A DNA stretch of 49,434 bases. Origin: Bacteroidales bacterium Bact_09. Lineage in GTDB: Bacteria > Bacteroidota > Bacteroidia > Bacteroidales > UBA932. The position numbers and the translations under genes are program-made. The DNA lies in assembly GCA_001603455.1 (NCBI GenBank), contig LUZA01000007.1, forward strand, positions 1 through 49,434, in the 5' to 3' direction. The notes beneath the pieces are model-generated. The model made no database searches. It was not told where the DNA came from and saw only the letters and a list, made by a program, of their open reading frames with translations. Of the stretch, positions 6,000 to 43,867 are shown one piece after another (the first letter of the stretch is position 1; every line of letters begins with the position of its first letter).

Positions 6000-6608
6000 G
6001 AATTTCCTCCCAACAAGCATCCTGATAGAGGCATAAGAGGCTTCCAACCGTTCTTCCAGGTCACTGGCGGGAACCCATTCTGCCTTTTCAATTCCCTCTT
6101 CTGTCTGAGGCAGTAACGACGACTCCGACCTGGTAATCATTTTAAACCATGCCGTCATTTTGAGCACGTTATTGCCATGATAATGATAACTATGGTATGT
6201 TGTGGAAAATTTATCCTCCAGAAGTTCCAGTCCCTGTACTCCGGTTTCCTCTGTGACCTCCCTGAGTGCCGTACCGAGGAGTGTCTCTCCGACTTCCTGC
6301 TTTCCCTTGGGCAGGTCCCATTTCCCGTACCGGTATATCATCAGCAGGAACCCTGAGGGATTGGTTACGATACCCCCAGCGGCGGGTATAACTACAAAAT
6401 GATTGCATATTTGCCGGAAAGAAGCATATGGATCTTTTACCGGAACAACCAGATGCTTGAGATTGTTGTCACATTCAAAATGAACTATCAGGTCCTCCCA
6501 GGAACGGTATATGTCAGGAGACTCCACTCTGACACACGGGAGCAGGCATACCGGACTGTCTGGCCGACAAAGCTGAAGTCGCCTATTATTGAAGAAAATA
6601 CTGTACAT
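5919..6608 (-). CDS. Nudix hydrolase
   Basis: A 229-residue protein with a complete Nudix box at residues 102-124 (G-x5-E-x7-REVTEETGV), which binds the divalent cations needed to cleave nucleoside-diphosphate-linked substrates. The substrate cannot be told from sequence. An N-terminal extension of about 70 residues precedes the Nudix fold. The last 26 codons and the stop lie antisense to the STAS gene and read through FLDDGKDIGE. This tail has no recognisable Nudix-fold role and looks like an acquired extension. The start codon lies only 5 bases downstream of a TATCTTTG box on this strand, so the transcript may have almost no leader. Confidence 0.85.
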   Translation of the reverse strand: MYSIFFNNRRLQLCRPDSPVCLLPCVRVESPDIYRSWEDLIVHFECDNNLKHLVVPVKDPYASFRQICNHFVVIPAAGGIVTNPSGFLLMIYRYGKWDLPKGKQEVGETLLGTALREVTEETGVQGLELLEDKFSTTYHSYHYHGNNVLKMTAWFKMITRSESSLLPQTEEGIEKAEWVPASDLEERLEASYASIRMLVGRKFLDDGKDIGETCQIEDILDLGSQIPYR

Positions 6609-6615
6609 TTGTACA
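6602..6615. promoter_or_regulatory. short inverted repeat over the Nudix/pyrE promoters
   Basis: TGTAC-ATTT-GTACA is a 5+5 inverted repeat that covers the pyrE -7 box and the Nudix start codon. It could be an operator, or simply a by-product of two facing promoter boxes. No regulator is encoded next to it. Confidence 0.3.
6604..6611 (+). promoter_or_regulatory. candidate -7 box for pyrE
   Basis: TACATTTG matches TAnnTTTG and ends 20 bases before the pyrE ATG at 6632. It faces the Nudix -7 box on the other strand, with two bases between them. No clear -33 element is seen. Confidence 0.45.
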
Positions 6616-6621
6616 AAGATA
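6614..6621 (-). promoter_or_regulatory. candidate -7 box for the Nudix gene
   Basis: On the minus strand this reads TATCTTTG. The Nudix ATG begins 5 bases downstream, which would put the expected transcription start at or beside the start codon. Confidence 0.4.
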
Positions 6622-6631
6622 TGTGAATATT

Positions 6632-7264
6632 ATGGAATCTGTTGAAAAAAAGGTTGCACAACAATTACTGGAAATTGAAGCAGTGCAGCTTAATATAGAA
6701 AAGCCTTTCGAATGGGCCTCCGGATGGTTGTCGCCCATATATTGCGATAACAGGAAAATATTATCGGTCCCCGCTGCACGTAACTTCATCTGTGAAGCCC
6801 TGTGCCGGTCCATTCTGCATAATTATCCTTCGGTAGAAGTGATTGCCGGAGTGGCCACTGGAGCCATTGCCATGGGGGTACTTATTGCCAACCGCCTGGA
6901 CAAACCTTTTATTTATGTACGTCCCAGGAGAAAGGACCATGGTACAGGGGCTCGCATAGAAGGAACGCTGGAATCCAAATCCAGGGTAGTGATTGTAGAG
7001 GATCTTATTTCCACGGGTAATTCTGCACTCTCGGCAGCCGAATGTCTTAGAATGTCCTGTGCCGACGTTTTAGGTGTGGTAGCCATTTTTTCCTATAATT
7101 TTGATGTGGCGCGAAGGGCTTTTGAAAAAAGCAATTGCGAACTGCACACACTTACCAATTACGACACCCTCATTCAGGAAGCAGCCAACAGTAATTATGT
7201 AAGTACAAAGCAGCTCGAGACATTGAAAATATGGCGTCTTACACCTAATACCTGGGGGCGGTAA
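6632..7264 (+). CDS. pyrE: orotate phosphoribosyltransferase
   Basis: PyrE joins orotate to PRPP to give orotidine 5'-phosphate in de novo pyrimidine synthesis. The 210-residue protein has the family segment FEWASGWLSPIYCDNR and the PRPP-binding loop VVIVEDLISTGNS at residues 119-131. VRPRRKDHGTG is the expected flexible loop. An in-frame GTG at 6623 is possible, but the ATG at 6632 gives the usual N terminus MESVEKKVAQQL. The SRPBCC gene follows one base after the stop, so the two are probably co-transcribed. pyrB and pyrI lie about 34 kb away, so the pathway genes are split here. Confidence 0.96.
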   Translation: MESVEKKVAQQLLEIEAVQLNIEKPFEWASGWLSPIYCDNRKILSVPAARNFICEALCRSILHNYPSVEVIAGVATGAIAMGVLIANRLDKPFIYVRPRRKDHGTGARIEGTLESKSRVVIVEDLISTGNSALSAAECLRMSCADVLGVVAIFSYNFDVARRAFEKSNCELHTLTNYDTLIQEAANSNYVSTKQLETLKIWRLTPNTWGR

Positions 7265-7697: not shown

Positions 7698-8291
7698 TCA
7701 ACGGGAAATATTCGGTGAAAAGAATCCGGAAGGACGGACCGGGACACTTTTGAAAGAAAGAAGTTCAATAGAATATTCCGAACCATCAGACAAGGCATAA
7801 CGGATAAAAAACGGTTTGAGCCCGTCAACGGTCATGTGGATGATCACATAGGTAAAAGGAGATTCTATGGAAAGAGGCACCAGTGTCAATTCCCACAGGG
7901 ATATTCCCGACGGGTTTTCTTTCCTGACAGGTGTCCCGGATTGGTAAAAATCCTTATCGAGACGGGAAAAAAAGGCGGAAGGATTATCCAGTATGTCTGT
8001 AGAATTTCTGTCATGCGGCAATGCTTCCCACTGATCTATCCCTTCATTGTAACACCATTTTTCCACCCCGTTGCAATAAATACTGAATTCGTCCATACGT
8101 ATAAAGAACTTATCTCCCTGAAGTACCATGGTCCCGTTGACCGTTTCATTCCAAAGGAAATCTGCTTCAAGGGCAGGCGCTCCAGCAATCTGACCGGCAA
8201 ATTCCTTTAATAATCCGGCAGTCGTCTGGGAGCTTAAAGTCCCGGAAACTGCACACAGCAGGGTGGATGTTATAATCGTTCGGATAGTCAT
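7698..8291 (-). CDS. LolA-like outer-membrane lipoprotein carrier protein
   Basis: A 197-residue exported protein with a signal peptide of about 21 residues (ending near GTLSSQ), followed by an eleven-strand-like pattern typical of LolA/LolB folds. LolA ferries lipoproteins through the periplasm to the outer membrane. The fit comes from the region around residues 40-75 (ADFLWNETVNGTMVLQGDKF) and from its position directly behind ftsK, an arrangement common in bacteria. The start codon overlaps the ftsK stop by 4 bases. Sequence identity to proteobacterial LolA is low, so the exact function is inferred. Confidence 0.72.
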   Translation of the reverse strand: MTIRTIITSTLLCAVSGTLSSQTTAGLLKEFAGQIAGAPALEADFLWNETVNGTMVLQGDKFFIRMDEFSIYCNGVEKWCYNEGIDQWEALPHDRNSTDILDNPSAFFSRLDKDFYQSGTPVRKENPSGISLWELTLVPLSIESPFTYVIIHMTVDGLKPFFIRYALSDGSEYSIELLSFKSVPVRPSGFFSPNISR

Positions 8292-10531
8292 TTTCCCAAC
8301 ATATCATCTAACAATTCCTGACTATTGACCAACAGTTCCCTGGGGCTGCTTCCTCTGGGAGGTCCAACGATACCTGCCTCCTCCAGCTGGTCCATAATTC
8401 TGCCTGCTCTATTGTAGCCAAGATGGAACCGGCGTTGCAACAGCGAAGTAGATCCCTCTCCGTTCTGGATCAATAACCTTGCCGCTTCCTCAAACAATTC
8501 ATCACGTTGACCGAACGAGGGAGAAAGCGTGTCTTGCCTGTCCGTTTCTGAATACTCCGGTAACTCAAAGGGACCGGGGTATCCCTGTTGATCCCCAATA
8601 AAATCGACCATACGTTCCACTTCGGGAGTGTCGATAAAAGCACATTGGACACGCAACAGATCAGTGCCTGCGGATATGAGCATATCACCACGTCCGACCA
8701 ACTGGTTGGCCTCGGAGACATCTATGATGGTCCGCGAGTCTATTTTGGAAGCAACCCGGAAAGCGATCCTGGCGGGAAAATTGGCTTTTATCGTCCCGGT
8801 TATGATGTTTGTCGTAGGTCGCTGGGTAGCAATGACCAAGTGGATCCCTGAGGCACGTCCCATCTGTGCCAGCCGGGTAAGCGGTCCTTCAACATCCCTG
8901 CCGGCGGTCATGATCAGATCGGCGAACTCGTCAATGATCAACACAATAAAAGGCATGAACCGGTGCCCCTTCTGGGGGTTCAGAACCCTTTCCTGGAATT
9001 TCTTGTTGTATTCCTTTATATTCCTCACACCCGCCCTGTTATACAGTTCCAGACGGTTATCCATCTCGATGCACAATGAATTGAGTGTATAAACGACTTT
9101 TTTTGTGTCAATGATAATGGGACTTTCTGCATCGGGGAGTTTAGCCAGGAAATGGTTTTCCAGTTTGGAATAAAGGTTCAGTTCAACCCGTTTGGGATCC
9201 ACAAGCACCAGCTTGAGGTAAGCCGGATGCATTTTGTACAGCAAAGATGCCAGAATGGCATTCAGGGCAACTGATTTTCCTTGGCCAGTGGCTCCTGCCA
9301 CAAGCAGGTGGGGCAAACGGGCAAGATCCAGCATCACGATCTCATTGGAAATACTCTTTCCCAGCACTATCGGCAAATCTTCCTTGGACTCCTTAAATTT
9401 TGTAGAATCCAGAACGCTTTTCATGGGGACAAGGGAAGGTTTGTCATTGGCAACCTCTATGCCAACCATATTGGTTCCGGGGATAGGTGCTATGACACGC
9501 ATCCCCCTTGCAGCAAGCGATAACATGATGTCATCTTCCAAACGTGTAAATTGTGAAATCCTGATTCCTGGTGAAAGCACAATTTTATACAAAGTAACCG
9601 TTGGACCTGGAGTAGCCACTATTTTCTCTATCCGGATATCGAAAGTTCTCAGACATTCCACTATCTTCTGGTTGTTCCGTTCCAACTCTTCCTGGGGCAC
9701 TTCCGTAATTCTTGTCCTGTAATCCTCCAGCAGGTCCAGGGTTGGTTTTTTATAATGTGACAGATCTTGTTTGGGATCGTAAAACAGCATTTCTCCTGAG
9801 GTCGGTTCTTCTTCTTTTTTTTCCACTTCAAATACGGGGGTCTGAGGTGTTTCGGGATCGGGAATGGCATCTATAACCTTGGGATCCTTTTTATATTCAG
9901 GTTCAATCACGGATATGGGACCAGACTCCGGAACAGCCTCCTGTTCTACTGTGTCTTGTAACCTTTTCTTTTCCTTTCTTTTATGGATCCATTTGTAGAT
10001 GAAAGGCAAGGGAAAAGCCGTCAGAACAAAAAAGATCAGCACTCCGGTCCCAACCGTGCCCAACATACTGATAAACCATTCGTTGACACGGTATCCGTAG
10101 GTTCCTCCCACGCCTGAACCAAACACAAATCGGAGTGAGGTGAAACTGAATATATATCCCAGGGCAATGGAAAGGATTATGCAGGCAAAAGCCGTTGTAA
10201 AGAACAACGGTATGATCCGGACCTTGCGTATCTTAAGTAAGAACACGGCAACGGCAACCAGAAAGAAAGGAATGATAAAGGCACTTACCCCAAACAGATT
10301 GCCTATAAACAGATCGGACCAGTAATTGCCAATGAGACCTCCGCTGTTGGCAACTCCGGCCTCGGGGACAAACAGATCCTCACGTGACAGCAAACTCTGA
10401 TCAACCGTCCATGTGAACAGATAGGATACGAATGCAACCAAGAGGTAAATTCCCAGAGCCAAGAATAACCAACCTGTTATGAGCCTGATATTATCGCCTA
10501 TACGTTGTTTTTTTTCTTTGTCATTGGCCAT
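8288..10531 (-). CDS. ftsK: DNA translocase FtsK
   Basis: FtsK pumps DNA at the division septum and helps resolve chromosome dimers. The 747-residue protein has four N-terminal membrane helices (about 20-40, 78-100, 108-130 and 155-178), a shorter linker than the E. coli protein, and the motor domain with Walker A GATGQGKS (413-420) and Walker B IVLIIDEFADL (529-539). ATQRP (568-572) follows. The C-terminal winged-helix gamma domain spans about 678-740. The start at MANDKEKKQR is chosen over an upstream ATG because that longer N terminus overlaps the DUF4290 coding sequence heavily and lacks family resemblance. The resulting overlap with DUF4290 is 11 bases. Confidence 0.95.
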   Translation of the reverse strand: MANDKEKKQRIGDNIRLITGWLFLALGIYLLVAFVSYLFTWTVDQSLLSREDLFVPEAGVANSGGLIGNYWSDLFIGNLFGVSAFIIPFFLVAVAVFLLKIRKVRIIPLFFTTAFACIILSIALGYIFSFTSLRFVFGSGVGGTYGYRVNEWFISMLGTVGTGVLIFFVLTAFPLPFIYKWIHKRKEKKRLQDTVEQEAVPESGPISVIEPEYKKDPKVIDAIPDPETPQTPVFEVEKKEEEPTSGEMLFYDPKQDLSHYKKPTLDLLEDYRTRITEVPQEELERNNQKIVECLRTFDIRIEKIVATPGPTVTLYKIVLSPGIRISQFTRLEDDIMLSLAARGMRVIAPIPGTNMVGIEVANDKPSLVPMKSVLDSTKFKESKEDLPIVLGKSISNEIVMLDLARLPHLLVAGATGQGKSVALNAILASLLYKMHPAYLKLVLVDPKRVELNLYSKLENHFLAKLPDAESPIIIDTKKVVYTLNSLCIEMDNRLELYNRAGVRNIKEYNKKFQERVLNPQKGHRFMPFIVLIIDEFADLIMTAGRDVEGPLTRLAQMGRASGIHLVIATQRPTTNIITGTIKANFPARIAFRVASKIDSRTIIDVSEANQLVGRGDMLISAGTDLLRVQCAFIDTPEVERMVDFIGDQQGYPGPFELPEYSETDRQDTLSPSFGQRDELFEEAARLLIQNGEGSTSLLQRRFHLGYNRAGRIMDQLEEAGIVGPPRGSSPRELLVNSQELLDDMLGK

Positions 10532-11177
10532 TTGATGTTGACCTTTTTTTCTTTTTATTCTTGTGCCATTGCCCCCCCTGACGCTGTTGCATACGTGTTC
10601 CGGGAGCATTGGGTTGTCTGAACTCACCTTGTATTTCCGATAATTTGGCTCCTTCGGGAACTGTCAGTGTGCCATTTGAAAGGGTACGTATATCGTGAAA
10701 AATAGTATGATCAGATACAGTGTCCTTGTTCCAGATCAGGTATTGTTTGCGCATATAGGATGCCAGCGCCATAGTCATGGCATCACGTTCCTCCCCCGCA
10801 GGTTTGGAAGCAATAGCCATTACCATATTTTGGATGTTTCTTCCGTAATGCATTACCTTGACGGAGTCCCGCTCAGCCCCGATGGCATGTGGTCTGGAAA
10901 CAAAATTTTCCCGTGCCGGAGGAGGGAACGGAGCATCCACATCCAGATCGTAATCGGCTATAATATAAACATGGTCCCACAATTTATGATAATAATCATT
11001 CATGTCACGTAACTGGGGATTCAGGACACTCATGGCATTGATGATTGCCTTGACCTGCCTTGTACGGGTCTCTCTATCAGGGATCATTTTGGCTTCCCTT
11101 ACCATTTGGTGTATATAACGGCCATATTCTGGCAGTATAAGTTTATCTCTCTGTGTGTTATAAGTGTTATAATCCAT
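10521..11177 (-). CDS. DUF4290 family protein
   Basis: A 218-residue protein of the Bacteroidota-specific DUF4290 family, recognised by the opening YNTQRDKLILPEYGR. It is soluble, with no signal peptide, and ends in a very basic tail rich in lysine and arginine (from about residue 195). That tail could touch nucleic acid or ribosomes, but this is only a guess. It sits between batE and ftsK in the long minus-strand run, 18 bases after batE, and overlaps ftsK by 11 bases. Function is unknown. Confidence 0.8.
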   Translation of the reverse strand: MDYNTYNTQRDKLILPEYGRYIHQMVREAKMIPDRETRTRQVKAIINAMSVLNPQLRDMNDYYHKLWDHVYIIADYDLDVDAPFPPPARENFVSRPHAIGAERDSVKVMHYGRNIQNMVMAIASKPAGEERDAMTMALASYMRKQYLIWNKDTVSDHTIFHDIRTLSNGTLTVPEGAKLSEIQGEFRQPNAPGTRMQQRQGGQWHKNKKKKRSTSNGQ

Positions 11178-11195
11178 TGTAAAATTTTCAAACTA

Positions 11196-11960
11196 CTAAT
11201 ATACAAAAACAATCTCATTCAGTGCTACCCATCCCTGCCGGCCGTCTTCCAGTTCTATCCGCACCCAATCTCCCATTTCTTCCAAAACACGCACCCTGGT
11301 ACCTTCGTGTATTACCAACAAATCCTTTCCCTGTGATCCCGGGGCAGATTTGACGGAACTGACTGCCGCCAGTACAATAGCTATGTCCTCCCGGATCGCC
11401 TGCTTCCTGGATTGCCAGGCAAATGCGGTAGAAGCTGCGGCAAAAAGAAAAACGATAACCGACAGGATAAAGGCAGTTTTGCGGAACCTTAGACCCCGTG
11501 CGAAATGAAAGAACATAAAGAAGGTCAGGGCAAGGACCAGCAATATGACAGAGACAATGGCCCACATATCGGAAGACAACAGCTGATGACTTTTGCGGAT
11601 CCAGTCGACGACAAAAAAAGTGGGAACGGGTTCTATCCTGTCAGTACATTGCTCCCTGGCAATTTCCAGATTATAAATAATGTCCGGATTGTTGGGTTCA
11701 AGTCTCAGAGCTTTTTCATAATACAGGATGGCATAGGCAATATAACGCATTTTATAATAAGTATTACCTATATTGTAATATAAGGCAGCAGATTCCCTGC
11801 CCGAGCTTTCTATCTCCAGGTAATTGTCCAGCGCTTCCTGGTATTGTGCGTTGGCATAATGGGAGTTGGCATTATTCCATAGGCTGTCCGCAGTATCCTG
11901 CGCCCCTGTTGTCAGGAATCCCGTAAAATACAAAAAAACAAAAAAAATGATCCTTTTCAT
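11196..11960 (-). CDS. batE: BatE, TPR and SH3 membrane protein of the Bat locus
   Basis: A 254-residue protein with a signal peptide (residues 1-20), TPR repeats (about 24-100), two membrane helices (132-152 and 163-182) and a C-terminal bacterial SH3 domain (about 200-252, with DWVRIELEDGRQGWV). This order is the usual BatE layout in Bacteroidota. The Bat proteins were linked to oxygen tolerance in Bacteroides fragilis, and the whole set is thought to act as a membrane-attached assembly with the MoxR ATPase. It follows batD by 8 bases and is the last bat gene of the run. Confidence 0.87.
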   Translation of the reverse strand: MKRIIFFVFLYFTGFLTTGAQDTADSLWNNANSHYANAQYQEALDNYLEIESSGRESAALYYNIGNTYYKMRYIAYAILYYEKALRLEPNNPDIIYNLEIAREQCTDRIEPVPTFFVVDWIRKSHQLLSSDMWAIVSVILLVLALTFFMFFHFARGLRFRKTAFILSVIVFLFAAASTAFAWQSRKQAIREDIAIVLAAVSSVKSAPGSQGKDLLVIHEGTRVRVLEEMGDWVRIELEDGRQGWVALNEIVFVY

Positions 11961-11968
11961 ATCACGAT

Positions 11969-13777
11969 CTATTTCAGCGCTTGTTCCATTTTACTTATTA
12001 CCGTTACGGCCTTTTCAAAGATCCTTTCCTTCTCCAGTTGACCAGGATCCGGCGCATAACGAGCGAATTCGCAGGATTCGATCAGACCTGTATAATCTTT
12101 TATAAGATCTTCATCTACATTAAGTCTGACCAGCATTTCCTCAACCCGCTCACGGGAACAGTCAGCCTGGGATAAAGCCAGTTTATCGGCAATATATCCC
12201 CACAGGGCCCGGTGCAATTCTTCGTAATATCCCTCGAAAAGCTTCTGTTTTAGCAACATACCGGCCGACCTAAGTCGTGTACGGGCCACTTTGTTGGCTT
12301 TGCTGTACCGTACCCTTACCACATCGTTGCGATGAACCCGGCGTTTTTCCAGCAACAGGTACAGGCCTCCTGTCAGGGAAAAAATACTGAACAGCAGTAT
12401 GAAGTACGACCAGCTGCCCGTAAAATATTTCCCTTTAGTACGCCAGGATGGCATACCAGCCTGGATATAGCGGATATCCTGCCCAAGGCTTTCCACATTG
12501 CGCCTATTCGTTCCCGGAGCAAAAGACACACCCTGACTGGTTGTTTCCGTACTTTTTTCCACTTTAATTACCAGTGGCGAGGAGCGTAAAGTCCGATATT
12601 GTCCGGCTTCGATATCGTAGTACGAAAATATTACCGGCTCTATGGTGAATTCTCCGTGATTTCTTGGGATTACAGGAAATTCAAATGTTTTGGACCCGGA
12701 AAAAGTTCCACCCGTGCTTTTGGAATTATCAGTTACTCTGGCATCGTAAACTTCAAAATCGGGAGGAAACTGAACCCGGGGTGCTTCCAGCAGGTTAATA
12801 TTTCCCTCCCCGGTAATGGTTACAAACATAGATACGGCGTCGTGTGCACGTATGGAATCTTTGCTCATGCTGGTTCTGAACGAAAACTTACCTACTGCCC
12901 CTGTGAAAGAAGCCGGAGCCCCGGCAGGCAGATCGTTTACCCTTACGGTGACGGCAGGAGCGACAACCCGCTTGCGCACCGTCTGGTACGTATCGAAAAA
13001 TTCATCCAGAAGAGATCGCCCCCTACGTGTATTGCGGACCTGGATGACACAAACTATTTCTGACGGATCAATACGTATCTCTCCGATCTGCTGTGGTAAC
13101 AACACATAACTTCTTAGTGTTGCAACCTGGTAAATTTCCCCTCCTACGTTTTCACGCTGCCATTCTATCTGCTGGGGAGCATAGACTTCCTGACTCCAAA
13201 ATCCGTTAAAAGTTGGAAACCGGATATCCTCCGCACCAGCCACATTTACCCGGGTGTACAGTCTAAGCGTAGCCGTCAGGGGTTCTCCCTTTACAACCTT
13301 TCGTTTGTTGACAGACAACTTTAGGAAGACATCCTGGTCGCTTACGTTCGTTCCCGCGGGAGCATTATCTTCCTGTTCCGGCTTTACTGTTCCCAGTGTT
13401 CCCTGGATCACTTCTACTATTATCGGCTGGGTCCTGTAGGTCACATTGTCCGATATGATGGAAGCTTCGCCAATAGTGAATTTTCCTTTTTCCCTGGCTT
13501 CCAGTATATACGTATAGCTGACTGAACGACTTTGCGTTCTGCGTCCGTTAATATACTCCATCCTGTTTATGGTCGATGTGGTGGGTCCTGCCAGGATCAG
13601 GAACCCTTCAATTCCAGGCGGATTGAAAGTATCGTGAGGAAGATCCGTGGCCGTAAAGACCAACCGGAACCTTTCCCCTGTGGCAACCACATTGGGCACC
13701 TCTATGGTGAATTGACCCTGTGCATTGGCTTGCACAATGCATAAAACATTCAGTATCAAAAGGATTGCCTTTTTCAT
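11969..13777 (-). CDS. batD: BatD, oxygen-tolerance family protein
   Basis: A 602-residue exported protein. A signal peptide (residues 1-20, MKKAILLILN onward, cut near ANAQ) is followed by a large series of beta-rich domains, one membrane helix (about 452-474) and a cytoplasmic domain (about 480-602). This is the BatD architecture. The start at 13777 is preferred to a codon 21 bases upstream because it gives a clean signal peptide. It lies 14 bases after the batB-batC fusion and 8 bases before batE. Confidence 0.88.
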   Translation of the reverse strand: MKKAILLILNVLCIVQANAQGQFTIEVPNVVATGERFRLVFTATDLPHDTFNPPGIEGFLILAGPTTSTINRMEYINGRRTQSRSVSYTYILEAREKGKFTIGEASIISDNVTYRTQPIIVEVIQGTLGTVKPEQEDNAPAGTNVSDQDVFLKLSVNKRKVVKGEPLTATLRLYTRVNVAGAEDIRFPTFNGFWSQEVYAPQQIEWQRENVGGEIYQVATLRSYVLLPQQIGEIRIDPSEIVCVIQVRNTRRGRSLLDEFFDTYQTVRKRVVAPAVTVRVNDLPAGAPASFTGAVGKFSFRTSMSKDSIRAHDAVSMFVTITGEGNINLLEAPRVQFPPDFEVYDARVTDNSKSTGGTFSGSKTFEFPVIPRNHGEFTIEPVIFSYYDIEAGQYRTLRSSPLVIKVEKSTETTSQGVSFAPGTNRRNVESLGQDIRYIQAGMPSWRTKGKYFTGSWSYFILLFSIFSLTGGLYLLLEKRRVHRNDVVRVRYSKANKVARTRLRSAGMLLKQKLFEGYYEELHRALWGYIADKLALSQADCSRERVEEMLVRLNVDEDLIKDYTGLIESCEFARYAPDPGQLEKERIFEKAVTVISKMEQALK

Positions 13778-13791
13778 ATTATTTTGTGCAT

Positions 13792-15513
13792 TTACCAATT
13801 TTTACCCGATCTGACAGGTACCGCCACCTTAGTCTTTTCTTTCTGTACTTTCTCTTGTGTTTCACGTTCTTTCTGCTGTACGGCTTCCAGCATCTGCTGG
13901 GCAGCCTGTGGTGTAATTTTTGGTGGCACCTCCTGGTTCTGCGGGTCCTGCTGCTGATCCTTATCCTGCTGATTTTGGTCTTGCCGGTCCTGCTGTTGGT
14001 CCTGCTGCTGGTCCTGCTGCTGGTCCTGCTGCTGGTCCTTATCCTGCTGATTTTGGTCTTGTCGGTCCTGCTGCTGGTCCTGCAACATTTTCTGCGCATA
14101 GGCCAGGTTAGTCTTTGTATCCATATCGCCTGGACGGGTCCTTAAAGCGTTCTTGTACGCCCGGATGCTTTCTGCATATTGTTTTTCGGACAAATAAATA
14201 TTCCCCAGGTTGTGCCAGGCATCGGCTTTGAATTCCGGAACCTCCAGCGAATCGGGAACACTTTTCATGATCCCGCCCGCCTGAGTATCATCCCCGGTCA
14301 GGTGAAGGGTGTTGGCCATGTTGTACCTGGCTTTCAGAGATGTCGAATCCTTTATCGCCGCACGCTGATAATCAAGTAACGCCTTGTCCAGATCTCCCTT
14401 GCGGAAAGCACGGTTCCCTGCACGGATATCCTTTTTATCGGCTTGAGCCGAGGCTACCAGGGAAAGACCGGTAAAGAGGATAAAGCAAACGGCTTTCTTT
14501 GTAAAGATATCAAAACTTTTTATACGCCGTCCTTTCCTTTCTCCGATCAGGGTTTCCAGAATAAGGAAGAATAGTGCGATCCCAAAAAAGTACATATACT
14601 GTTCGTTAAAATCCTCAAAAACAACCGCCTGGAATTCCTGCTGATCCATTTTGCGGACAGCATCCACTATTCCCTGAAGACCAAAATCGGAATTTCCGGC
14701 TCTGACATAAATTCCCCCTCCTGCTTCTGCTACTTCCCTAAGTGTTTTTTCATCAAGCTTTGTGACTACGGTATTTCCTTCTTCGTCCTTGAGAAGTGAC
14801 CCGTCTGGCATAGGAATGGGTTTTCCATATTCAGATCCGATGCCTATGCAATGTACCAATATCCCCTGGTTTGACGCCTCCCGGGCTGCAGCTACAGCAT
14901 CATCCTCGTGGTTTTCCCCGTCAGTGATCAGGATTAAAGCCCTGCTCCCGGGTATGTCCAAGCTGAAGCTCCTGATCCCTGTAGTGATTGCCTGTCCAAG
15001 AGCCGTCCCCTGACGAGGTACGGACCCGGTATTGATCGTATTGAGGAACATCTTGGCGCTAACATAATCGGTAGTCACCGGTAATTGTACAAATGCATCG
15101 CCTGCAAATACGATGAGACCTATCCTGTCCCTGTCCAGGTTGTCCGCCAGGCGGGAAACGGCCAGCTTGGCGCGTTCCAGCCTGTTGGGTGTATAATCTT
15201 CTGCCATCATGGAATTGGAAACATCCAGGGCAATGATAATCTCAACACCGGTGCGTTTCATTTCCTTGACACGTGCCCCCGTGCGTGGACGTGACAGACC
15301 CAGTGCGAAAAAGAACAGGGCTGCACAAAACAAACTGATCTTGATCCAGCCCCGTCGGCGCGATACATCAGGCATCAGGGGTCTGAGAAGCTCGGGATCC
15401 CCGTACCTCCTCAACATCTTTCTTCCGTAATGCCTGTACAGGCCATATATGACCAAAAGCAGCGGAATAGTCGCTATGATCCATAAATACTGAACTTGAG
15501 CTAACTGTATCAT
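13792..15513 (-). CDS. BatB-BatC fusion: von Willebrand A domain joined to TPR protein
   Basis: The 573-residue product combines two proteins that are normally separate. Residues 1-325 are BatB: two membrane helices (7-27, 58-76), a von Willebrand A domain with MIDAS residues DVSNS (97-101), Thr170 and Asp198, and a helix at 306-322. Residues 338-356 look like the signal peptide of BatC but now sit inside the chain. Residues 361-475 carry TPR repeats and 479-525 a Gln/Asp-rich repeat tract. I find no stop codon and no in-frame ATG, GTG or TTG in the junction (about 325-357), so it reads as one protein. With three preceding helices, the joint helix probably changes which side of the membrane the TPR part faces. 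Confidence 0.85.
   Translation of the reverse strand: MIQLAQVQYLWIIATIPLLLVIYGLYRHYGRKMLRRYGDPELLRPLMPDVSRRRGWIKISLFCAALFFFALGLSRPRTGARVKEMKRTGVEIIIALDVSNSMMAEDYTPNRLERAKLAVSRLADNLDRDRIGLIVFAGDAFVQLPVTTDYVSAKMFLNTINTGSVPRQGTALGQAITTGIRSFSLDIPGSRALILITDGENHEDDAVAAAREASNQGILVHCIGIGSEYGKPIPMPDGSLLKDEEGNTVVTKLDEKTLREVAEAGGGIYVRAGNSDFGLQGIVDAVRKMDQQEFQAVVFEDFNEQYMYFFGIALFFLILETLIGERKGRRIKSFDIFTKKAVCFILFTGLSLVASAQADKKDIRAGNRAFRKGDLDKALLDYQRAAIKDSTSLKARYNMANTLHLTGDDTQAGGIMKSVPDSLEVPEFKADAWHNLGNIYLSEKQYAESIRAYKNALRTRPGDMDTKTNLAYAQKMLQDQQQDRQDQNQQDKDQQQDQQQDQQQDQQQDRQDQNQQDKDQQQDPQNQEVPPKITPQAAQQMLEAVQQKERETQEKVQKEKTKVAVPVRSGKNW
13939..14079. repeat. tandem repeat encoding a Gln/Asp-rich tract
   Basis: A compound repeat inside batB-batC. 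The core is a 12-base unit, read on the plus strand as CTGCTGCTGGTC and on the coding strand as Gln-Gln-Gln-Asp. It is flanked on both sides by copies of a longer segment encoding DRQDQNQQDKD. All units keep the reading frame. Such a tract is likely to vary in copy number between strains. Confidence 0.85.
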
Positions 15514-15517
15514 AACT

Positions 15518-16507
15518 TTACGGTATTCTTCTCAAAACAATCCAACGCAATAAAAATTCCAGAGCCAGGGCAAACAAAGCCACCAGAGCAAATTTCATGA
15601 ACATTTCTCTATAGACAGGAAATGAATCCACCAGTGTCCTGCTTTTTTCCATCTGGTTGATCTGGTTGTAGATAGATAAAAGCTTGGTATTATCCGTTGC
15701 CCGGAAATACTCTCCCCCTGTTATGCCGGCTATCTGTTTTAATAGATCCTCGTCTATCTCGACCTTTACCTGCTGTATCTGAACTCCATATGGTGTCATA
15801 ATCGGATAAGGGGCCATCCCGTGTGCCCCTACCCCAATGGTATAAACGCGGATTCCATAGGTGCGTGCGATCTCGGCCGCAGTGAGCGGCGTAACCTCAC
15901 CCCTGTTGTTCACACCATCCGTAAGCAATATCACCACACGGCTCACGGCATCGGAATCCTTAAGTCTGGCAACTGCCGTGGCCAGTCCGTTCCCAATGGC
16001 CGTTCCATCCTCCATAAGACCCGTTTGGACCTCTTTCATCATATTGATCAAAGTTATCCGGTCTGTTGTCAGGGGACACTGCGTATATGACTCTCCTGCA
16101 AAAACCACTATGCCTATGCGGTCAGTGGGACGTTCTGCTATGAATTGAATGGCAATATCCTTGGCAGCAGCTATTCTGTCCGGCTGAAAATCCCTGGCAA
16201 GCATAGAAGTTGACACATCCATGGCAAGCATAATATCAATCCCTTCTGTCGAGGTTGTTTCATAATCGGAAGAAGAGCGCGGACGCGCTATGGCAATGAT
16301 CAGGGCTGCCAGAGTAATCATCCTGAGGGCAAAAGGCACATGATAAATTATCTTTCTAAATGAAATTCCATCTTTGAAAAATGGCTGCAAACTGGAAACC
16401 TGAAGCGACGGGACATTCTTTCCCTTAAGTTCCCTGTAGAGATACCATCCGGCAAGTGGTACCAGAAGAAGCAATAAAAACAGGAGTTTGGGATATTCAA
16501 AAAACAT
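15518..16507 (-). CDS. batA: BatA, von Willebrand A domain membrane protein
   Basis: A 329-residue inner-membrane protein with two N-terminal helices (about 8-25 and 58-75), a von Willebrand A domain with a full MIDAS (DVSTS at 97-101, plus LLTDG further on), and a C-terminal helix (about 306-324). The domain binds a divalent metal and partner proteins. BatA and BatB are paralogues and adjacent here, 4 bases apart. Its length and helix pattern match BatA from Bacteroides. Confidence 0.9.
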   Translation of the reverse strand: MFFEYPKLLFLLLLLVPLAGWYLYRELKGKNVPSLQVSSLQPFFKDGISFRKIIYHVPFALRMITLAALIIAIARPRSSSDYETTSTEGIDIMLAMDVSTSMLARDFQPDRIAAAKDIAIQFIAERPTDRIGIVVFAGESYTQCPLTTDRITLINMMKEVQTGLMEDGTAIGNGLATAVARLKDSDAVSRVVILLTDGVNNRGEVTPLTAAEIARTYGIRVYTIGVGAHGMAPYPIMTPYGVQIQQVKVEIDEDLLKQIAGITGGEYFRATDNTKLLSIYNQINQMEKSRTLVDSFPVYREMFMKFALVALFALALEFLLRWIVLRRIP

Positions 16508-16518
16508 AACCTATGATC

Positions 16519-17541
16519 TTATTCTTCTTTTTCTTCTTTATTATCATCTTCCTGAAGAACTGCCGTCCCCGATACGAACAGGATTGCCCGTTCCAAGGAT
16601 TCTTTGTTCTCACTGTCCGAAGGTGTGTACTTGGCGAATTTTGCCAGATCACCGGTCAGGAACATTTTTTCCAGAACACCTATGTTCTCATCTGTCAGCA
16701 GAGAATCACCGGCTTTTTCCTTCCGCAGGGAACAGATCATTTCTGCAGATGTCTGTTCCATTGCCTGAATGCCCCACCGGTCATGCAGATAAACACGTAT
16801 GGTATCTGTCAGCAGGGTATAATATTGTTTTGCTTTCTGTTTTTTCCACAATTCCTGTTTTCTGATAGACTCCAGGATCTTCAACGCTGCCACGTGTGGC
16901 GGATCTCCGGGTTTGATTTGTCCGAAAACCGGAAGGTTTTTTCTGCGCCGCTGCACAATTCTCACAATCAAGAAGATCAGTCCTGCCACTATTATGATCA
17001 CACCGGCCAGTAACAGTATTTCACCAGTAGTCACAGGATAGCGCATTTGGGGTTTGAGTCCGAAAGGTTCGAATGTTGTCGTGTCAACCTGAATGGTATT
17101 GACGTATAATCTGGGGCCTTTAAACCATAATGTATCAACAATTCCATCCATCCGTTTAAGATATAGCGGCATATGTGGCAGCTGATAGGATCCGCTGTCA
17201 AATGAAGTCAGCAGAATACGTGCTTCTATGGCTTCCAGCCTTTTTTTTCTGTAAACAGAATCGAGTATGACAGGAGACAAAGCTTCCACTCCTTTTGTGA
17301 TATCAAAGGGCAATGATCGAAACTGTACGGCTTCGATCTGCTTGTCCTGCCAGGCTTCCCTGGGCAAATCCATCTTCCACCAGATCTGGTCGCCAATCAG
17401 GATGCTATCCCTGTCCAAAGCCGATTCAAGGGCCTGGAAATCCCGTCCCGGCGAAATAACCGGAATCTGTTGCGCCAGCGCTTCTGATGTCGTGAAAACA
17501 AATAAGGCGACAAATAATTTTTTAATAATGAACCTGTACAT
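16519..17541 (-). CDS. Bat-locus membrane protein of unknown function
   Basis: A 340-residue protein found between the DUF58 and batA genes. It has a signal peptide (residues 1-24, ending ALAQ), an exported domain of about 145 residues, one membrane helix (173-195) followed by the charged stop QRRRK, and a cytoplasmic helical domain ending in an acidic tail. An unnamed gene of this type sits in the same place in other Bat loci. The ATG at 17541 is used rather than the TTG two codons earlier, which overlaps the upstream stop. I do not recognise a catalytic motif. Confidence 0.72.
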   Translation of the reverse strand: MYRFIIKKLFVALFVFTTSEALAQQIPVISPGRDFQALESALDRDSILIGDQIWWKMDLPREAWQDKQIEAVQFRSLPFDITKGVEALSPVILDSVYRKKRLEAIEARILLTSFDSGSYQLPHMPLYLKRMDGIVDTLWFKGPRLYVNTIQVDTTTFEPFGLKPQMRYPVTTGEILLLAGVIIIVAGLIFLIVRIVQRRRKNLPVFGQIKPGDPPHVAALKILESIRKQELWKKQKAKQYYTLLTDTIRVYLHDRWGIQAMEQTSAEMICSLRKEKAGDSLLTDENIGVLEKMFLTGDLAKFAKYTPSDSENKESLERAILFVSGTAVLQEDDNKEEKEE

Positions 17542-17543
17542 AA

Positions 17544-18425
17544 TCAAGCTCTGCTTTTAAAAAGCCGGATCAGAGGCTGTACATAATCCTGATCCGTTGC
17601 AATCTTTACATGATCTACATGGTATTTATTCAGGATGGTCTTTATATGCTCCTGGCTGTTACCGTACCATTGCGCATAATCCTGGCGAACCTTTTTTCCC
17701 GATGTATCCACCCAAAGTTCCCTTCCTGTCTCGGCATCCATCATCCGTACCAGACCTACATTGGGCAATTCCGTCTCGCGGGCATCATATATCTGTATGG
17801 CAGCTAGATCGTGTTTGTTTACCGCGATCTTAAGGCTTTCTTCAAAACGGGGATTTTCCCTGTTGTCCAGGTCCATCAGATCGGACAGAAGAAATGCCGT
17901 GCAACGCTTTTTTATGGCGTTCGTCAGAAAACGAAGCGCTTCGGAAATATCTGTCTGACGGCTCTGAGGTTCAAATTCCAGCATTTCCCTTATAATATGC
18001 AGCAAATGAGAACGTCCTTTCTTGGGAGGAATGAATTTCTCCACCTTGTCGCTGAAAAACAGGGCACCCACTTTATCGTTGTTTATCGAAGCTGAGAAGC
18101 TCAAAACAGCAGCCACCTCGGCAAGGAGTTCTTTTTTTAATTTTATCCTCGTTCCAAACCAACGTGAACCGCTCACATCTATGAGCAACACAACGGTCAA
18201 TTCCCGTTCTTCTTCAAAGACTTTGATATAAGGTGCATTCATCCTGGCCGTGACGTTCCAATCCATATTCCTCACATCATCCCCATACTGGTACTCACGT
18301 ACTTCACTGAAGGCCATTCCTCTTCCCTTGTACGCCGAATGATACTCTCCGGCGAAGATCTGGCGGGACAGCCCCCTTGTTTTGATCTCTATTTTTCGGA
18401 CATTCTTCAGCAGATTATTTGACAT
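17544..18425 (-). CDS. DUF58 protein with von Willebrand A-like fold
   Basis: A 293-residue soluble protein of the DUF58 family, regularly paired with MoxR ATPases. It contains the diagnostic segment EVREYQYGDDVRNMDWNVTA (residues 41-60) and a degenerate MIDAS (DVSGS, about 83-87). It probably acts as the MoxR client or adaptor that links the ATPase to the Bat membrane proteins. It follows moxR by 9 bases and precedes the next gene by 2. Confidence 0.9.
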   Translation of the reverse strand: MSNNLLKNVRKIEIKTRGLSRQIFAGEYHSAYKGRGMAFSEVREYQYGDDVRNMDWNVTARMNAPYIKVFEEERELTVVLLIDVSGSRWFGTRIKLKKELLAEVAAVLSFSASINNDKVGALFFSDKVEKFIPPKKGRSHLLHIIREMLEFEPQSRQTDISEALRFLTNAIKKRCTAFLLSDLMDLDNRENPRFEESLKIAVNKHDLAAIQIYDARETELPNVGLVRMMDAETGRELWVDTSGKKVRQDYAQWYGNSQEHIKTILNKYHVDHVKIATDQDYVQPLIRLFKSRA

Positions 18426-18434
18426 AGCTAGCTA

Positions 18435-19427
18435 CTAAGGAACTTCAACGGCATTGATGATAGAGGTGATGATGTTTTCGGTAACAATATTCTCGGCTTC
18501 CGCTTCATACGTCAATCCAATCCTGTGGCGCAACACTTCATAGGCCACTGCACGTACATCTTCAGGAATGACATAGCCACGACGGCGAATAAAAGCATAG
18601 GCTTTGGAGGCAATGGCAAGGGAAATACTGGCACGCGGAGATGAGCCATAGGCTATCAAAGGTTTCAGGTCAGGAAGGTTATAATCGCCGGGATTTCTGG
18701 TAGCGTATACCAGGTCGACTATATATCGTTCAATCTTTTCGTCCATGTACACTTCCCTGACTACTTCCCGGGCTTTGCGGATGTCAGCGGGTTTGAGCAC
18801 CTGTGCCGCTGTTGGGAATTCCCCTGTATTGTTCATTCGTATGATGAGTTTTTCTTCATCTTTTTTGGGGTAATCCACGATGACCTTTAGCATAAAACGG
18901 TCAACCTGCGCTTCCGGCAAAGGATATGTTCCCTCTTGCTCTATGGGGTTCTGTGTGGCCAGTACCAGGAAAGGTTCCGGAAGCGGGAAAGTGTGTTCCC
19001 CAATGGTCACCTGTCTTTCCTGCATCGCTTCCAGAAGTGCGGACTGCACTTTTGCGGGAGACCGGTTGATTTCGTCTGCCAGAATGAAATTGGCAAAGAC
19101 GGGGCCTTTTTTGACCTGGAATTCTTCTGTACGCTGACTATAGATTAGTGTGCCTATTAAATCGGCCGGCAACAAGTCAGGCGTGAATTGAATACGACTG
19201 AATTTGGCATCTACTACACTGGCCAACGTTCTGATAGCCAGTGTTTTTGCCAATCCGGGAACACCTTCAAGCAAAATGTGTCCGTTGGCCAGAAGACCTA
19301 TCAGCAGACTTTCCACCAACTGCTTTTGCCCTACGATCACTTTACTCATTTCAAGGGTCATGATGTCTACAAAGGCACTTTCCCTCTGGATTCGTTCGTT
19401 CAACTCTTTAATGTTTACGGTTTCCAT
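18435..19427 (-). CDS. MoxR-family AAA+ ATPase
   Basis: A 330-residue AAA+ ATPase of the MoxR group, which acts as a chaperone for von Willebrand A proteins. Walker A is GVPGLAKT (55-62), Walker B ILADE (115-119), and the sensor 1 segment ATQNP (157-161) precedes the EAQVDRFML motif (172-180). It is the first gene of a run that continues with no gap over 20 bases through DUF58, the Bat genes, DUF4290, ftsK and the lolA-like gene. A -7 box lies about 46 bases upstream, facing that of truA. Confidence 0.93.
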   Translation of the reverse strand: METVNIKELNERIQRESAFVDIMTLEMSKVIVGQKQLVESLLIGLLANGHILLEGVPGLAKTLAIRTLASVVDAKFSRIQFTPDLLPADLIGTLIYSQRTEEFQVKKGPVFANFILADEINRSPAKVQSALLEAMQERQVTIGEHTFPLPEPFLVLATQNPIEQEGTYPLPEAQVDRFMLKVIVDYPKKDEEKLIIRMNNTGEFPTAAQVLKPADIRKAREVVREVYMDEKIERYIVDLVYATRNPGDYNLPDLKPLIAYGSSPRASISLAIASKAYAFIRRRGYVIPEDVRAVAYEVLRHRIGLTYEAEAENIVTENIITSIINAVEVP

Positions 19428-19464
19428 ACAATGATATTTACAATACGGTTATGGTTTTTTCGTT

Positions 19465-19472
19465 TATATTTG
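19465..19472 (+). promoter_or_regulatory. candidate -7 box for truA-exbBD-tonB
   Basis: TATATTTG fits TAnnTTTG and ends 17 bases before the truA ATG at 19490. One base separates it from the facing moxR box on the other strand. Confidence 0.5.
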
Positions 19473-19473
19473 T

Positions 19474-19481
19474 CAAAGATA
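19474..19481 (-). promoter_or_regulatory. candidate -7 box for the moxR-bat-ftsK run
   Basis: On the minus strand this reads TATCTTTG, leaving a leader of about 40 bases before the moxR ATG. It points at the truA box, so the two initiation regions overlap. Confidence 0.5.
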
Positions 19482-19489
19482 CATCCTTT

Positions 19490-20263
19490 ATGCGGTATTT
19501 TATCCATTTATCATTTAACGGTACACATTACCACGGCTGGCAAATTCAAAAAAATGCACCCTGTGTACAGGCTTATCTGGAAAATGCATTAGGCCGTATA
19601 TTAAGGGAAACCGTCACAGTAACCGGATGCGGCCGTACCGATACGGGAGTCCACGCAAAGGATTTCTGGGCACATTTCAATTACACCGGAAATCCTTTCA
19701 GGTGTGATGTTTTAACTTACAAATTGAATGCCATATTACCCCATGATATTTACGTTTATGACATTTTGCCCGTTCCAGAAAACCTTCATGCAAGATATCA
19801 CGCCGTTAGCAGGACATACCGCTATTTTGTCCGGCGGAACAAAGATCCTTTTCTGGAAGGATTATCGTCAGCCCCGGGAACTTATACTCAAACCCCACCT
19901 GACCCGGAAATAATGAACAAGGCCGCCCGTCTGTTGCTGGGCACACATGATTTTACAAGTTTTTCCAAATTGCATTCGCAAACCCGTACCAATACATGCA
20001 CCGTAATGGAAGCATATTGGTTTGTTATCCAAACGGATTTTGGAACAGCTCCTTTATGGGTCTTTCAGGTGACCGCAGACCGATTTCTCAGAAATATGGT
20101 CCGCTGTATGGTCGGGACCCTTTTGGAGATAGGGATGGGGAAAAAACCCGTGGAATGGATTTTGCAATTACTGACAGAAAAAAACCGTTCCCTTGCGGGA
20201 CATTCCGTGCCTCCCGAAGGACTTTTCCTGTGGAAGGTAAATTATGACAAACTAAAACAGTAA
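19490..20263 (+). CDS. truA: tRNA pseudouridine(38-40) synthase
   Basis: TruA converts uridines 38-40 of tRNA anticodon arms to pseudouridine. The 257-residue protein has the catalytic segment GCGRTDTGVHA with Asp51 as nucleophile, the early FNGTHYHGWQ motif, and FLRNMVRCMVGTLLEIG in the C-terminal half. The ATG at 19490 gives the standard MRYFIHLSFNG start. An upstream in-frame codon at 19451 would place the promoter inside the gene. ExbB follows after 6 bases. Confidence 0.96.
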   Translation: MRYFIHLSFNGTHYHGWQIQKNAPCVQAYLENALGRILRETVTVTGCGRTDTGVHAKDFWAHFNYTGNPFRCDVLTYKLNAILPHDIYVYDILPVPENLHARYHAVSRTYRYFVRRNKDPFLEGLSSAPGTYTQTPPDPEIMNKAARLLLGTHDFTSFSKLHSQTRTNTCTVMEAYWFVIQTDFGTAPLWVFQVTADRFLRNMVRCMVGTLLEIGMGKKPVEWILQLLTEKNRSLAGHSVPPEGLFLWKVNYDKLKQ

Positions 20264-20269
20264 ACTGAT

Positions 20270-20938
20270 ATGTTGCACATCGTACTTCAAACAGAGGCCA
20301 TTGCAGAAGCCTCGTCCTCAATTTCATTATTGTCCATGGCTGCCAGAGGAGGCTGGCTGATGATCGTTCTGCTAGCATTATCTGTAGTGGCAGTGTATAT
20401 TTTCGGAGAACGGCTTGTTGTTTTGCGGAAAGCATCTAAAGTGGACCAAAATTTCATGAACAATATCAAGGAATACATATACGACGGTAAAGTGCAGTCA
20501 GCCATACATTTGTGCGAAAATCAAAATACGATCACAGCACGTTTGATTGCCAAGGGATTGCACAATATCGGACGCCCTCTTACAGATATCAAATCTGCCA
20601 TAGAGAACGTGGGGAGCATAGAGGTCGCACGGCTGGAAAAAGGGCTCCCTGTGCTGGCTTCCGTTGCCGGAGGTGCACCCATGGTGGGATTTTTGGGAAC
20701 TGTCATAGGAATGATAAAAGCATTTTATAATATGTCCATGGCAGGCAACAATATTGACATTACATTACTTTCAGAAGGGATCTACATAGCCATGGTCACC
20801 ACTGTAGGTGGTCTGATCATTGGGATTCCTGCTTATTTTGCATACAATTACTTGTCAGCACGTATCGGGTCCATTGTGAACACGATGGAAAAGAACACGC
20901 TCGATTTTCTGGATCTGCTACAGGAACCGCTTAAATAA
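20270..20938 (+). CDS. exbB: ExbB/TolQ/MotA-family proton channel protein
   Basis: A 222-residue membrane protein with helices at about 28-46, 127-150 and 170-195. The segment GGAPMVGFLGTVIGMIKAF is the MotA/TolQ/ExbB family signature. Together with ExbD it forms the proton-driven motor that energises TonB-dependent outer-membrane transport. The exbD and tonB genes follow directly (6 and 17 bases), so an ExbB role is preferred over TolQ or MotA. Confidence 0.9.
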   Translation: MLHIVLQTEAIAEASSSISLLSMAARGGWLMIVLLALSVVAVYIFGERLVVLRKASKVDQNFMNNIKEYIYDGKVQSAIHLCENQNTITARLIAKGLHNIGRPLTDIKSAIENVGSIEVARLEKGLPVLASVAGGAPMVGFLGTVIGMIKAFYNMSMAGNNIDITLLSEGIYIAMVTTVGGLIIGIPAYFAYNYLSARIGSIVNTMEKNTLDFLDLLQEPLK

Positions 20939-20944
20939 GATCTT

Positions 20945-21358
20945 ATGGCCATTAAAAGAAATACAAAGGTTGAACCTACATTTACGATGGCTTCCATGAC
21001 TGATATCGTATTCCTGTTGCTGATATTCTTCCTGGTTACATCCACGTTAATAAATCCCAATGCACTCAGGCTGTTGCTTCCTAAAAGTACCAACCAGATA
21101 TCGGACAAGGCTCAGATAAGCGTTTCCATTAAACATTATCCCCAGGCAGGTACTTTCTCCTACCATATCAACGGGAGCCATAATGCCATCGCTTTCAGTG
21201 ACATTGAACCCCAATTGCAGCAGGAGCTTCAGAACAGCGATGATCCGATCGTATCTTTATATGTTGATAAGACTGTTCCCATGGAACAGGTGGTTCAGGT
21301 AATGAACATTGCCAAACGGAATCAGTATAAGGTAATCCTTGCCACATCACCCGAATAG
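20945..21358 (+). CDS. exbD: ExbD/TolR-family motor protein
   Basis: A 137-residue single-helix protein. The helix (about 18-37) begins MTDIVFLLLIFF with Asp20 as the proton-carrying residue of the family, and a periplasmic domain follows. It partners with ExbB. Only one exbD copy is present, although some Bacteroidota operons carry two. Confidence 0.91.
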   Translation: MAIKRNTKVEPTFTMASMTDIVFLLLIFFLVTSTLINPNALRLLLPKSTNQISDKAQISVSIKHYPQAGTFSYHINGSHNAIAFSDIEPQLQQELQNSDDPIVSLYVDKTVPMEQVVQVMNIAKRNQYKVILATSPE

Positions 21359-21375
21359 GGATAAAATATCCGGAT

Positions 21376-22128
21376 ATGGATCAGTACAGGGGAAACAGGA
21401 CGGGTATCTGGCTGACAGCGGGATTTCATCTGCTGCTGACGGCTGTGCTGTTGCTTGCCGGAATCAGGTCCTCTCCCCCCGAACACGACAATAGGCTGCA
21501 GATCGAGATCCAAATTGAAGAAGATCCTCTGCCTGTGCCTGTCCGGATCATTGCCGAACAAGGCTCAAGTCCCCGCTCCCCCCGGCCGGTCCCTGAACGG
21601 GAACCGAAATTGGTTCAGCAGGCTATGGTCCCCGAACAGATTGAAGGAACGCAAAGAACCGAGGAGAGTACACCGGGAAAAACGGGAGATGTAGCGGTCA
21701 CAGATCCTGAGCCGCCTGTGATCAATAAAAGGGCTTTATACAGAAGTCGTGACGTAGACACGCTGGCCGGAGAACAGACAGGCCTGCGTGTGGGCCAAAA
21801 CCGTCAAGCAGGTGATCCCGCTGGAAACACGCAGAGCGGCAACCCACTGGGCCAACCCACAGCCCAACTGGAAGGACGGACCGTTATAGGCAAATTGCCC
21901 CTTCCCGAATACTCGGAAAACCTAGCAGGGAAAGTTGTGGTCCGTATCCTAGTGGACAGTTACGGAAACGTAACCTCTGCCACGGCGGGAATCGAAGGAA
22001 CAACCGTACAAAACAAAATACTGTGGGAAGCGACAAAGAAAGCAGCCCGGCAGGCCCGCTTCAATGTGAGTGGTTCAGCTCCGGCCATTCAGGAAGGCAA
22101 AATCACCTATATCTTTACACTTAAGTAA
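21376..22128 (+). CDS. tonB: TonB-family energy transducer
   Basis: A 250-residue protein with one N-terminal membrane helix (about 11-30), a long Pro/Glu/Gln-rich periplasmic linker (about 45-160) and a C-terminal TonB domain (about 165-250, with LAGKVVVRILVDSYGNV). It carries motor energy from ExbB-ExbD to outer-membrane receptors. The linker contains many short prolines and glycine-rich steps, as expected for spanning the periplasm. It ends 7 bases before the convergent permease gene. Confidence 0.88.
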   Translation: MDQYRGNRTGIWLTAGFHLLLTAVLLLAGIRSSPPEHDNRLQIEIQIEEDPLPVPVRIIAEQGSSPRSPRPVPEREPKLVQQAMVPEQIEGTQRTEESTPGKTGDVAVTDPEPPVINKRALYRSRDVDTLAGEQTGLRVGQNRQAGDPAGNTQSGNPLGQPTAQLEGRTVIGKLPLPEYSENLAGKVVVRILVDSYGNVTSATAGIEGTTVQNKILWEATKKAARQARFNVSGSAPAIQEGKITYIFTLK

Positions 22129-42793: not shown

Positions 42794-43867
42794 ATGAAAA
42801 CCACATACAATTTTAACGCAGGTCCCTGTATCCTGCCCAAAGAAGCCATTAAGACAGGTATTGATGCTTTACAGGATTTTAACAATTCCGGAATGTCGAT
42901 AGTAGAGATATCACACCGTTCCAAAGACTGGGAGGCAGTGATGAATGAGTGTCGTGCCCTATGGAAAGAATTGCTGCATATACCCGACAACTACGAAGTT
43001 CTTTTCCTGGGAGGCGGTGCAAGTCTGCAGTTCTGCATGGTCCCCATGAACCTGCTAAACAGGAAAGCGGCCTATCTGGAAACTGGCGTCTGGGCAAAAA
43101 AGGCGATCAAGGAAGCCAAGGCTTTTGGTGAAGTGGTAACGGTGGCATCCTCGGCAGAAAGTACTTTCAATCACATCCCTAAAGATTTTAACATTCCGGC
43201 CGATGCGGATTATTTTCACATTACAACCAACAACACCATTTACGGGACCGAGATCCACACCGATATGGACAGCCCCGTTCCGCTGGTAGCCGATATGTCA
43301 TCTGATATCATGAGCCGTCCGGTAAATGTGTCAAAATACGCTTTGATTTATGGAGGTGCTCAAAAAAACGTAGGTCCTGCCGGGGTTACTTTTGTGATTA
43401 TACGCAAAGATATTTTAGGTAAAGTAAGCCGTCATATTCCCTCCATGCTAAATTACCAGATACATATTGAAGGTGAATCTATGTTCAACACCCCGCCCGT
43501 ATTCCCCATCTTTATCATGACACAAACCCTCAAATGGCTCAAAAAACTGGGTGGTGTGGAAGCCATTCGCAAGATCAACCGGGAAAAAGCCGATCTGTTA
43601 TACGGGGAAATTGACCGTAATCCGCTCTTTAAAGGCACTGCAGCAAAAGAAGACCGTTCTGTAATGAATGTTTGTTTTGTTATGGCCCCGGGTTATGAAT
43701 CATTGGAAGCCGGATTCATGGATTTTGCCAAATCCCGTGGCATGGTGGGCATCAAGGGTCACCGTTCAGTCGGAGGGTTTAGGGCTTCTATTTACAATGC
43801 CTGCCCAAAGGAAAACGTACAGGCCTTAGTTAACTGTATGCAGGAATTTGAAAAAACACATAAATAA
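42794..43867 (+). CDS. serC: phosphoserine aminotransferase
   Basis: SerC transfers an amino group from glutamate to 3-phosphohydroxypyruvate in serine synthesis. The 357-residue protein opens with [12 protein letters not shown] and has Lys191 in [12 protein letters not shown] as the pyridoxal phosphate lysine. [10 protein letters not shown] is another family mark. serA follows after 6 bases. Confidence 0.96.

Follow-up and report, generated by a model that had tools for sequence, protein, structure and literature searches.

The window, by which we mean the whole stretch of 49,434 nucleotides analysed here, carries two divergent gene runs that begin with moxR and truA, and the short spacer between them holds the 17-bp site with which we are concerned (Table 1). 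The gene identities agree broadly with the preliminary description, which had placed a ten-gene envelope and division run that includes moxR-bat opposite a truA-exbBD-tonB run; its label 'TonB motor' is plausible but not settled. The motor genes (20270-21358) score higher against TolQ (1e-26) and TolR (3e-10) than against ExbB and ExbD, all of them below cut-off, as is the match of the third protein to the TonB C-terminal domain (4e-5). The order from moxR to batE is conserved across Bacteroidota, and so is the position, between DUF58 and batA, of a 342-aa protein (16519-17547, minus strand) for which searches of Pfam and NCBIfam gave no convincing match. The TruA product starts MRYFIHLSFNG, and this MRY/MRF start is aligned in all relatives. 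A longer truA reading frame opening at the ATG at 19451 was rejected, that start being upstream of the predicted transcription start and deleted in the sister species L100 and L102.

Table 1. Features of the moxR/truA region of the window, with the predicted leaders of both runs.
Feature	Position	Strand	Remarks
moxR, AAA+ ATPase, first gene of the leftward run	18435..19427	-	Pfam AAA_3, 9e-67
Rest of the leftward run: DUF58, 342-aa protein of no family, batA, batB/C fusion with TPRs, batD, batE-like TPR-SH3, DUF4290, ftsK, LolA-like	7698..18425	-	
Predicted moxR leader	19428..19469	-	Start ~19469, 42 nt to the ATG at 19427; same box rule as for truA (PMC9723704)
truA-facing -7 box TATATTTG	19465..19472	+	Exact TANNTTTG; invariant in the 12 genus species
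Spacer base between the boxes	19473	no strand	T here; C in L098
moxR-facing -7 box TATCTTTG	19474..19481 (reads 19481-19474)	-	Exact TANNTTTG on the minus strand
Predicted truA leader	19477..19489	+	Start ~19477, 13 nt to the ATG at 19490; by the published box rule (PMC9723704)
truA, first gene of the rightward run	19490..20263	+	TIGR00071, 3e-52
TolQ/ExbB-like, TolR/ExbD-like and TonB-like genes	20270..22128	+	Profile scores below cut-off

The site at 19465-19481, flanked by the two start codons, reads TATATTTG-T-CAAAGATA. The earlier claim of two -7 boxes lying face to face between moxR and truA, one base apart, is exact on direct reading. TAnnTTTG is the -7 consensus of the Bacteroidota sigma-A (PMC9723704; PMC7366714), and in Flavobacterium it occupies positions -12 to -5 from the start (PMC9723704); both boxes match it, at ordinary distances from their genes. 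The -33 element is optional, having been reported for B. fragilis and not identified in F. johnsoniae, and in parts of the phylum it is weak or has not been found (PMC7366714). Compared with the sigma-A promoters described in this phylum (PMC9723704; PMC7366714), the site has exact consensus matches but no visible -33 TTTG for either box; TTTG or TTG at -33 spacing is absent for both in this species and in nearly all of its relatives. Scans of the 17-bp region for a sigma-70 promoter, a terminator, an Rfam RNA or a tRNA found none. In the window, the next exact match upstream is at 29556 for the moxR-facing box and at 7096 for the truA-facing one.

A lone box carries little weight, since single TANNTTTG matches number 39 in the window against 34 expected. 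Opposed pairs with a gap of 0-12 occur three times in the window against an expectation of about 0.09 (26 boxes on the plus strand x 13 on the minus strand x 13 gaps / 49434), and 20 times in the whole genome against 4 for the pattern read backwards. Opposed pairs with a gap of 0-3 amount to 87 in 13 genomes of the genus, versus 9 in the reversed control, a count in which many pairs are orthologous and so non-independent. The fused back-to-back form CAAANNTANNTTTG, our control for geometry, is not enriched (48 versus 54), and the excess of opposed pairs is therefore not one of composition; the reversed pattern, this fused control and conservation together rule out a base-composition artefact. 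Judged by sequence comparison, the opposed boxes of moxR/truA are not there by chance, and it is conservation that decides this for the site. Back-to-back pairs with a gap of 0-12 (44 versus 2 in the genome) are commoner than opposed ones, so that opposed boxes are a minority layout among divergent promoters. A phylum-wide class defined by the exact one-base gap was also rejected: 61 genomes gave about control-level matches, the excess of tight pairs being seen in the genus.

Conservation was followed first among 12 species of the genus, namely our own, L016 (evidently the same genome as L224), L097-L104, L222 and L223. All 12 retain the two boxes and the gap of one base, and the 17 bp differ among them just at the spacer base and, in the moxR-facing box, at one degenerate position (TATCTTTG to TATATTTG). 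The flanking spacer varies among these species; L100 and L102 have lost about 28 bp of the stretch that separates the boxes from the moxR start, with the core intact. A wider set of moxR/truA spacers, 90 distinct sequences mostly from the family, has the truA-facing box in 88, the moxR-facing box in 73 and both in 71, and the two face each other in 69 of those 71; dinucleotide-shuffled spacers gave 9.6 for the truA-facing box, 5.6 for the moxR-facing box and 0.3 for opposed pairs. The box matches reflect constraint, because TruA is just 40-50% identical to the window's protein in most of these relatives and unconstrained spacer DNA would have lost them. The gap ranges from 1 to 53 overall and, outside the genus, from 4 to 53, mostly 11-20 bp. 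About a fifth of the spacers (17/90) have no exact moxR-facing box, and moxR must therefore use a degenerate or different promoter there.

Two further features of these spacers were noticed. Longer spacers (89-103 bp) with the boxes at their two ends and a gap of 35-46 are found in L134, L141, L164 and L181; there, the 5' ends of the two predicted RNAs would overlap for tens of bases. Outside the genus (L017-L033, L105-L185), the truA-facing box carries an extension about 4 bp ahead of it and reads TTTTG-TATTTTTG (T-16, 96%; T-15, 92%; T-14, 88%; G-13, 79%); the moxR-facing box is without it.

The assignment of each box to a gene rests on its behaviour at other loci. In sense orientation, TANNTTTG is enriched 20-100 bp before the starts of co-directional genes (75 matches in 240 regions), and CAAANNTA in sense before such genes is at control level (22 versus 16). 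Since it is unenriched there, we take the CAAANNTA that precedes truA to be most plausibly the moxR promoter, and we rejected it as a leader motif or translation signal. The converse idea, of a truA-facing box that accompanies moxR promoters in general, was rejected as well: of 62 moxR loci from outside the family, most of them without truA as a neighbour, 39 have a moxR box of their own and only 6 have an opposed box, 3 of these 6 with truA nearby or on the contig. The opposed box being this rare where truA is not a close neighbour, the truA-facing box goes with truA. The two conserved boxes are very probably functional promoter elements that face opposite genes.

Two other readings of the 17 bp deny one or both boxes this role. 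The truA-facing box could be the sole promoter, the moxR-facing match then belonging to the truA leader or translation start region and being conserved as such. In the genus, this match sits 9-16 nt ahead of the truA start codon amid bases that are themselves conserved, as such a role would have it, and the 17 relatives without an exact moxR-facing box fit as well. The element is, however, unenriched before co-directional genes, and its changes within the genus are limited to degenerate box positions. In the family as a whole it lies at differing distances from truA and keeps to about 33-48 bp before moxR, where a moxR promoter belongs, and the window scan gave no second exact moxR-facing box within 10 kb upstream. 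We consider a sole truA promoter very unlikely. The core is also a near-perfect inverted repeat, and could be a palindromic operator for a repressor or an activator instead of two promoter boxes; a perfect version, TATCTTTGCAAAGATA, lies between the co-directional genes holB and one of the PSP1 family. Against an operator, the half-sites lie anywhere from 1 to over 40 apart in the relatives, a spread that would be too wide for a dimeric regulator, each half fits the established -7 consensus down to the degenerate positions, and the Rfam and sigma-70 scans of the region show nothing else, all of which makes it extremely improbable. The perfect palindrome (L006, 1501-1516, between the holB-like and PSP1-family genes) is present in most genus members read; one of its arms would fire antisense into holB, or that site may be an operator.

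We therefore return to two promoter boxes, and regard the 17 bp as likely to form the core of a bidirectional, face-to-face sigma-A promoter, in which two ordinary promoters are packed together with predicted starts about 8 bp apart. Both boxes are probably used, and the published box rule predicts where transcription would begin. Each strand would have its own sigma-A -7 box, and the housekeeping sigma factor would thus serve both runs from one small region; because the boxes are opposed, the melted regions and the polymerase footprints would coincide. The predicted starts (Table 1) would diverge at this one-base gap, and the two RNAs would therefore not overlap. The preliminary description had proposed that initiation is mutually exclusive and that this may balance the two runs. 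Its first part is a reasonable deduction: by geometry the footprints would overlap, and the region unwound in either direction would cover the opposite box, so that a bound polymerase should exclude the other orientation and the site is probably occupied in only one orientation at a time. Its second part, the balancing role, is unsupported for the reasons given below.

Bidirectional promoters have been defined as having divergent starts 7-25 bp apart (PMC10268837), and those of E. coli prefer spacings of 18, 10 and 23 bp (PMC12825309). The spacing of 8 bp predicted for moxR/truA by rule from the box positions, on opposite strands and between divergent genes, falls within the published range and near the 10-bp class of E. 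coli. The examples that Warman, Grainger and colleagues described in E. coli and other prokaryotes have overlapping polymerase sites, as is predicted here, and often lie between divergent mRNA genes (PMC12825309; PMC10268837). The commonest E. coli form differs in having one nearly symmetrical, shared -10 element with starts 18 bp apart, whereas moxR/truA has two separate boxes: no single box is shared between the strands, and each predicted start region falls on or beside the opposite box. Bacteroidota need two boxes because TAnnTTTG is not self-complementary. In most other genera of the family, with their gap of 11-20, the predicted starts coincide or cross and are outside the published definition of a bidirectional promoter.

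Beck and Warren are said to have classed divergent promoters, in 1988, as back-to-back, overlapping or face-to-face. In the face-to-face class each box is downstream of the other in its own direction, and the same is true at moxR/truA, which departs from it in no essential way and is a compact form built from the Bacteroidota sigma-A box. Our literature search found no bidirectional promoters in Bacteroidota, a result that weighs little since it covered open-licence papers only; the word 'bidirectional' is absent from the B. thetaiotaomicron map.

The claim that the layout serves to balance an envelope and division run against a TonB-motor run is not supported: the downstream genes change, the gap drifts, and in published work E. 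coli promoters of this kind showed no competition at basal activity. In its full form, the claim makes the opposed boxes a device under selection: initiation in one direction would suppress the opposite run and so balance moxR-bat-ftsK against TolQR/TonB. Several observations agree with such a device. At the spacing seen here the footprints must overlap, and by extrapolation they would probably do so at gaps as wide as about 48, a range that includes 68 of the 69 opposed pairs. The boxes are opposed in 69 of 71 spacers, against about 40% (33.5/83) under a packing model that positions each box independently, using the distances found before co-directional genes. At other places in the sampled loci, divergent pairs carrying both boxes mostly lie back to back. 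In a study of five bidirectional promoters of E. coli, strong activation of one direction suppressed the other (PMC12825309). In the same study, however, weakening one direction had little effect on the other, with no gain at basal activity (PMC12825309). The supposed cargo is also inconstant. Among the loci searched, only L016, a member of the same genus, has DUF4290-ftsK after its bat genes; truA lacks the following tolQR-tonB genes in L018, L023 and L024, and L018 and L024 keep the opposed boxes with no tolQR-tonB in about 9 kb downstream of truA. The idea is weakened because this cargo changes while the boxes stay. Nor is any fixed geometry of interference preserved, the gap being anything from 1 to 53. 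Fitting two promoters into some 60 bp accounts for part of the arrangement, and the comparison with the packing model leaves out shared ancestry, which could explain the excess; selection for opposition is thus possible. We find a selected balancing device distinctly unlikely, and it is unlikely that exclusion balances the two runs at normal expression as its main role. The layout is explained most simply as two ordinary promoters in a short shared spacer, with selection acting on each box.

A broader proposal would be that Bacteroidota build bidirectional promoters from opposed boxes, that the moxR/truA layout was selected as competition between polymerases couples the two runs, and that the gap sets whether the starts diverge (gap of 1, in the genus) or cross (11-20, in most other genera); this seems to us doubtful, with a small chance of being right. 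What the locus offers are concrete and deeply conserved candidate bidirectional promoters in a phylum that has an unusual primary sigma factor and for which the searchable literature describes none. The natural variation in the gap (1 to 53 bp) and in the downstream genes would allow a direct test of interference against shared space.

The genus has other conserved face-to-face pairs, such as those of nadK/pdxJ and NUDIX/PRTase, and the layout is therefore a recurring one of a known type. The nadK/pdxJ pair (L014, 1501-1519) lies between divergent genes and is conserved across the genus, as are the opposed boxes between proS, for prolyl-tRNA synthetase, and an unknown gene (L012, 1501-1519). 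The window itself has a second opposed pair at 6604-6621, TACATTTG-TA-CAAAGATA, with a gap of 2, between a NUDIX gene (minus strand) and a phosphoribosyltransferase-like gene (plus strand), and this pair is conserved in all 9 genus members read. Its third, at 43387-43412 with a gap of 10, is inside a coding reading frame (42794-43867, plus strand) and is probably due to chance. A pair with a wider gap, of 9, lies between divergent LysR-family and ferritin-like genes in our own genome (L011, 1501-1525).
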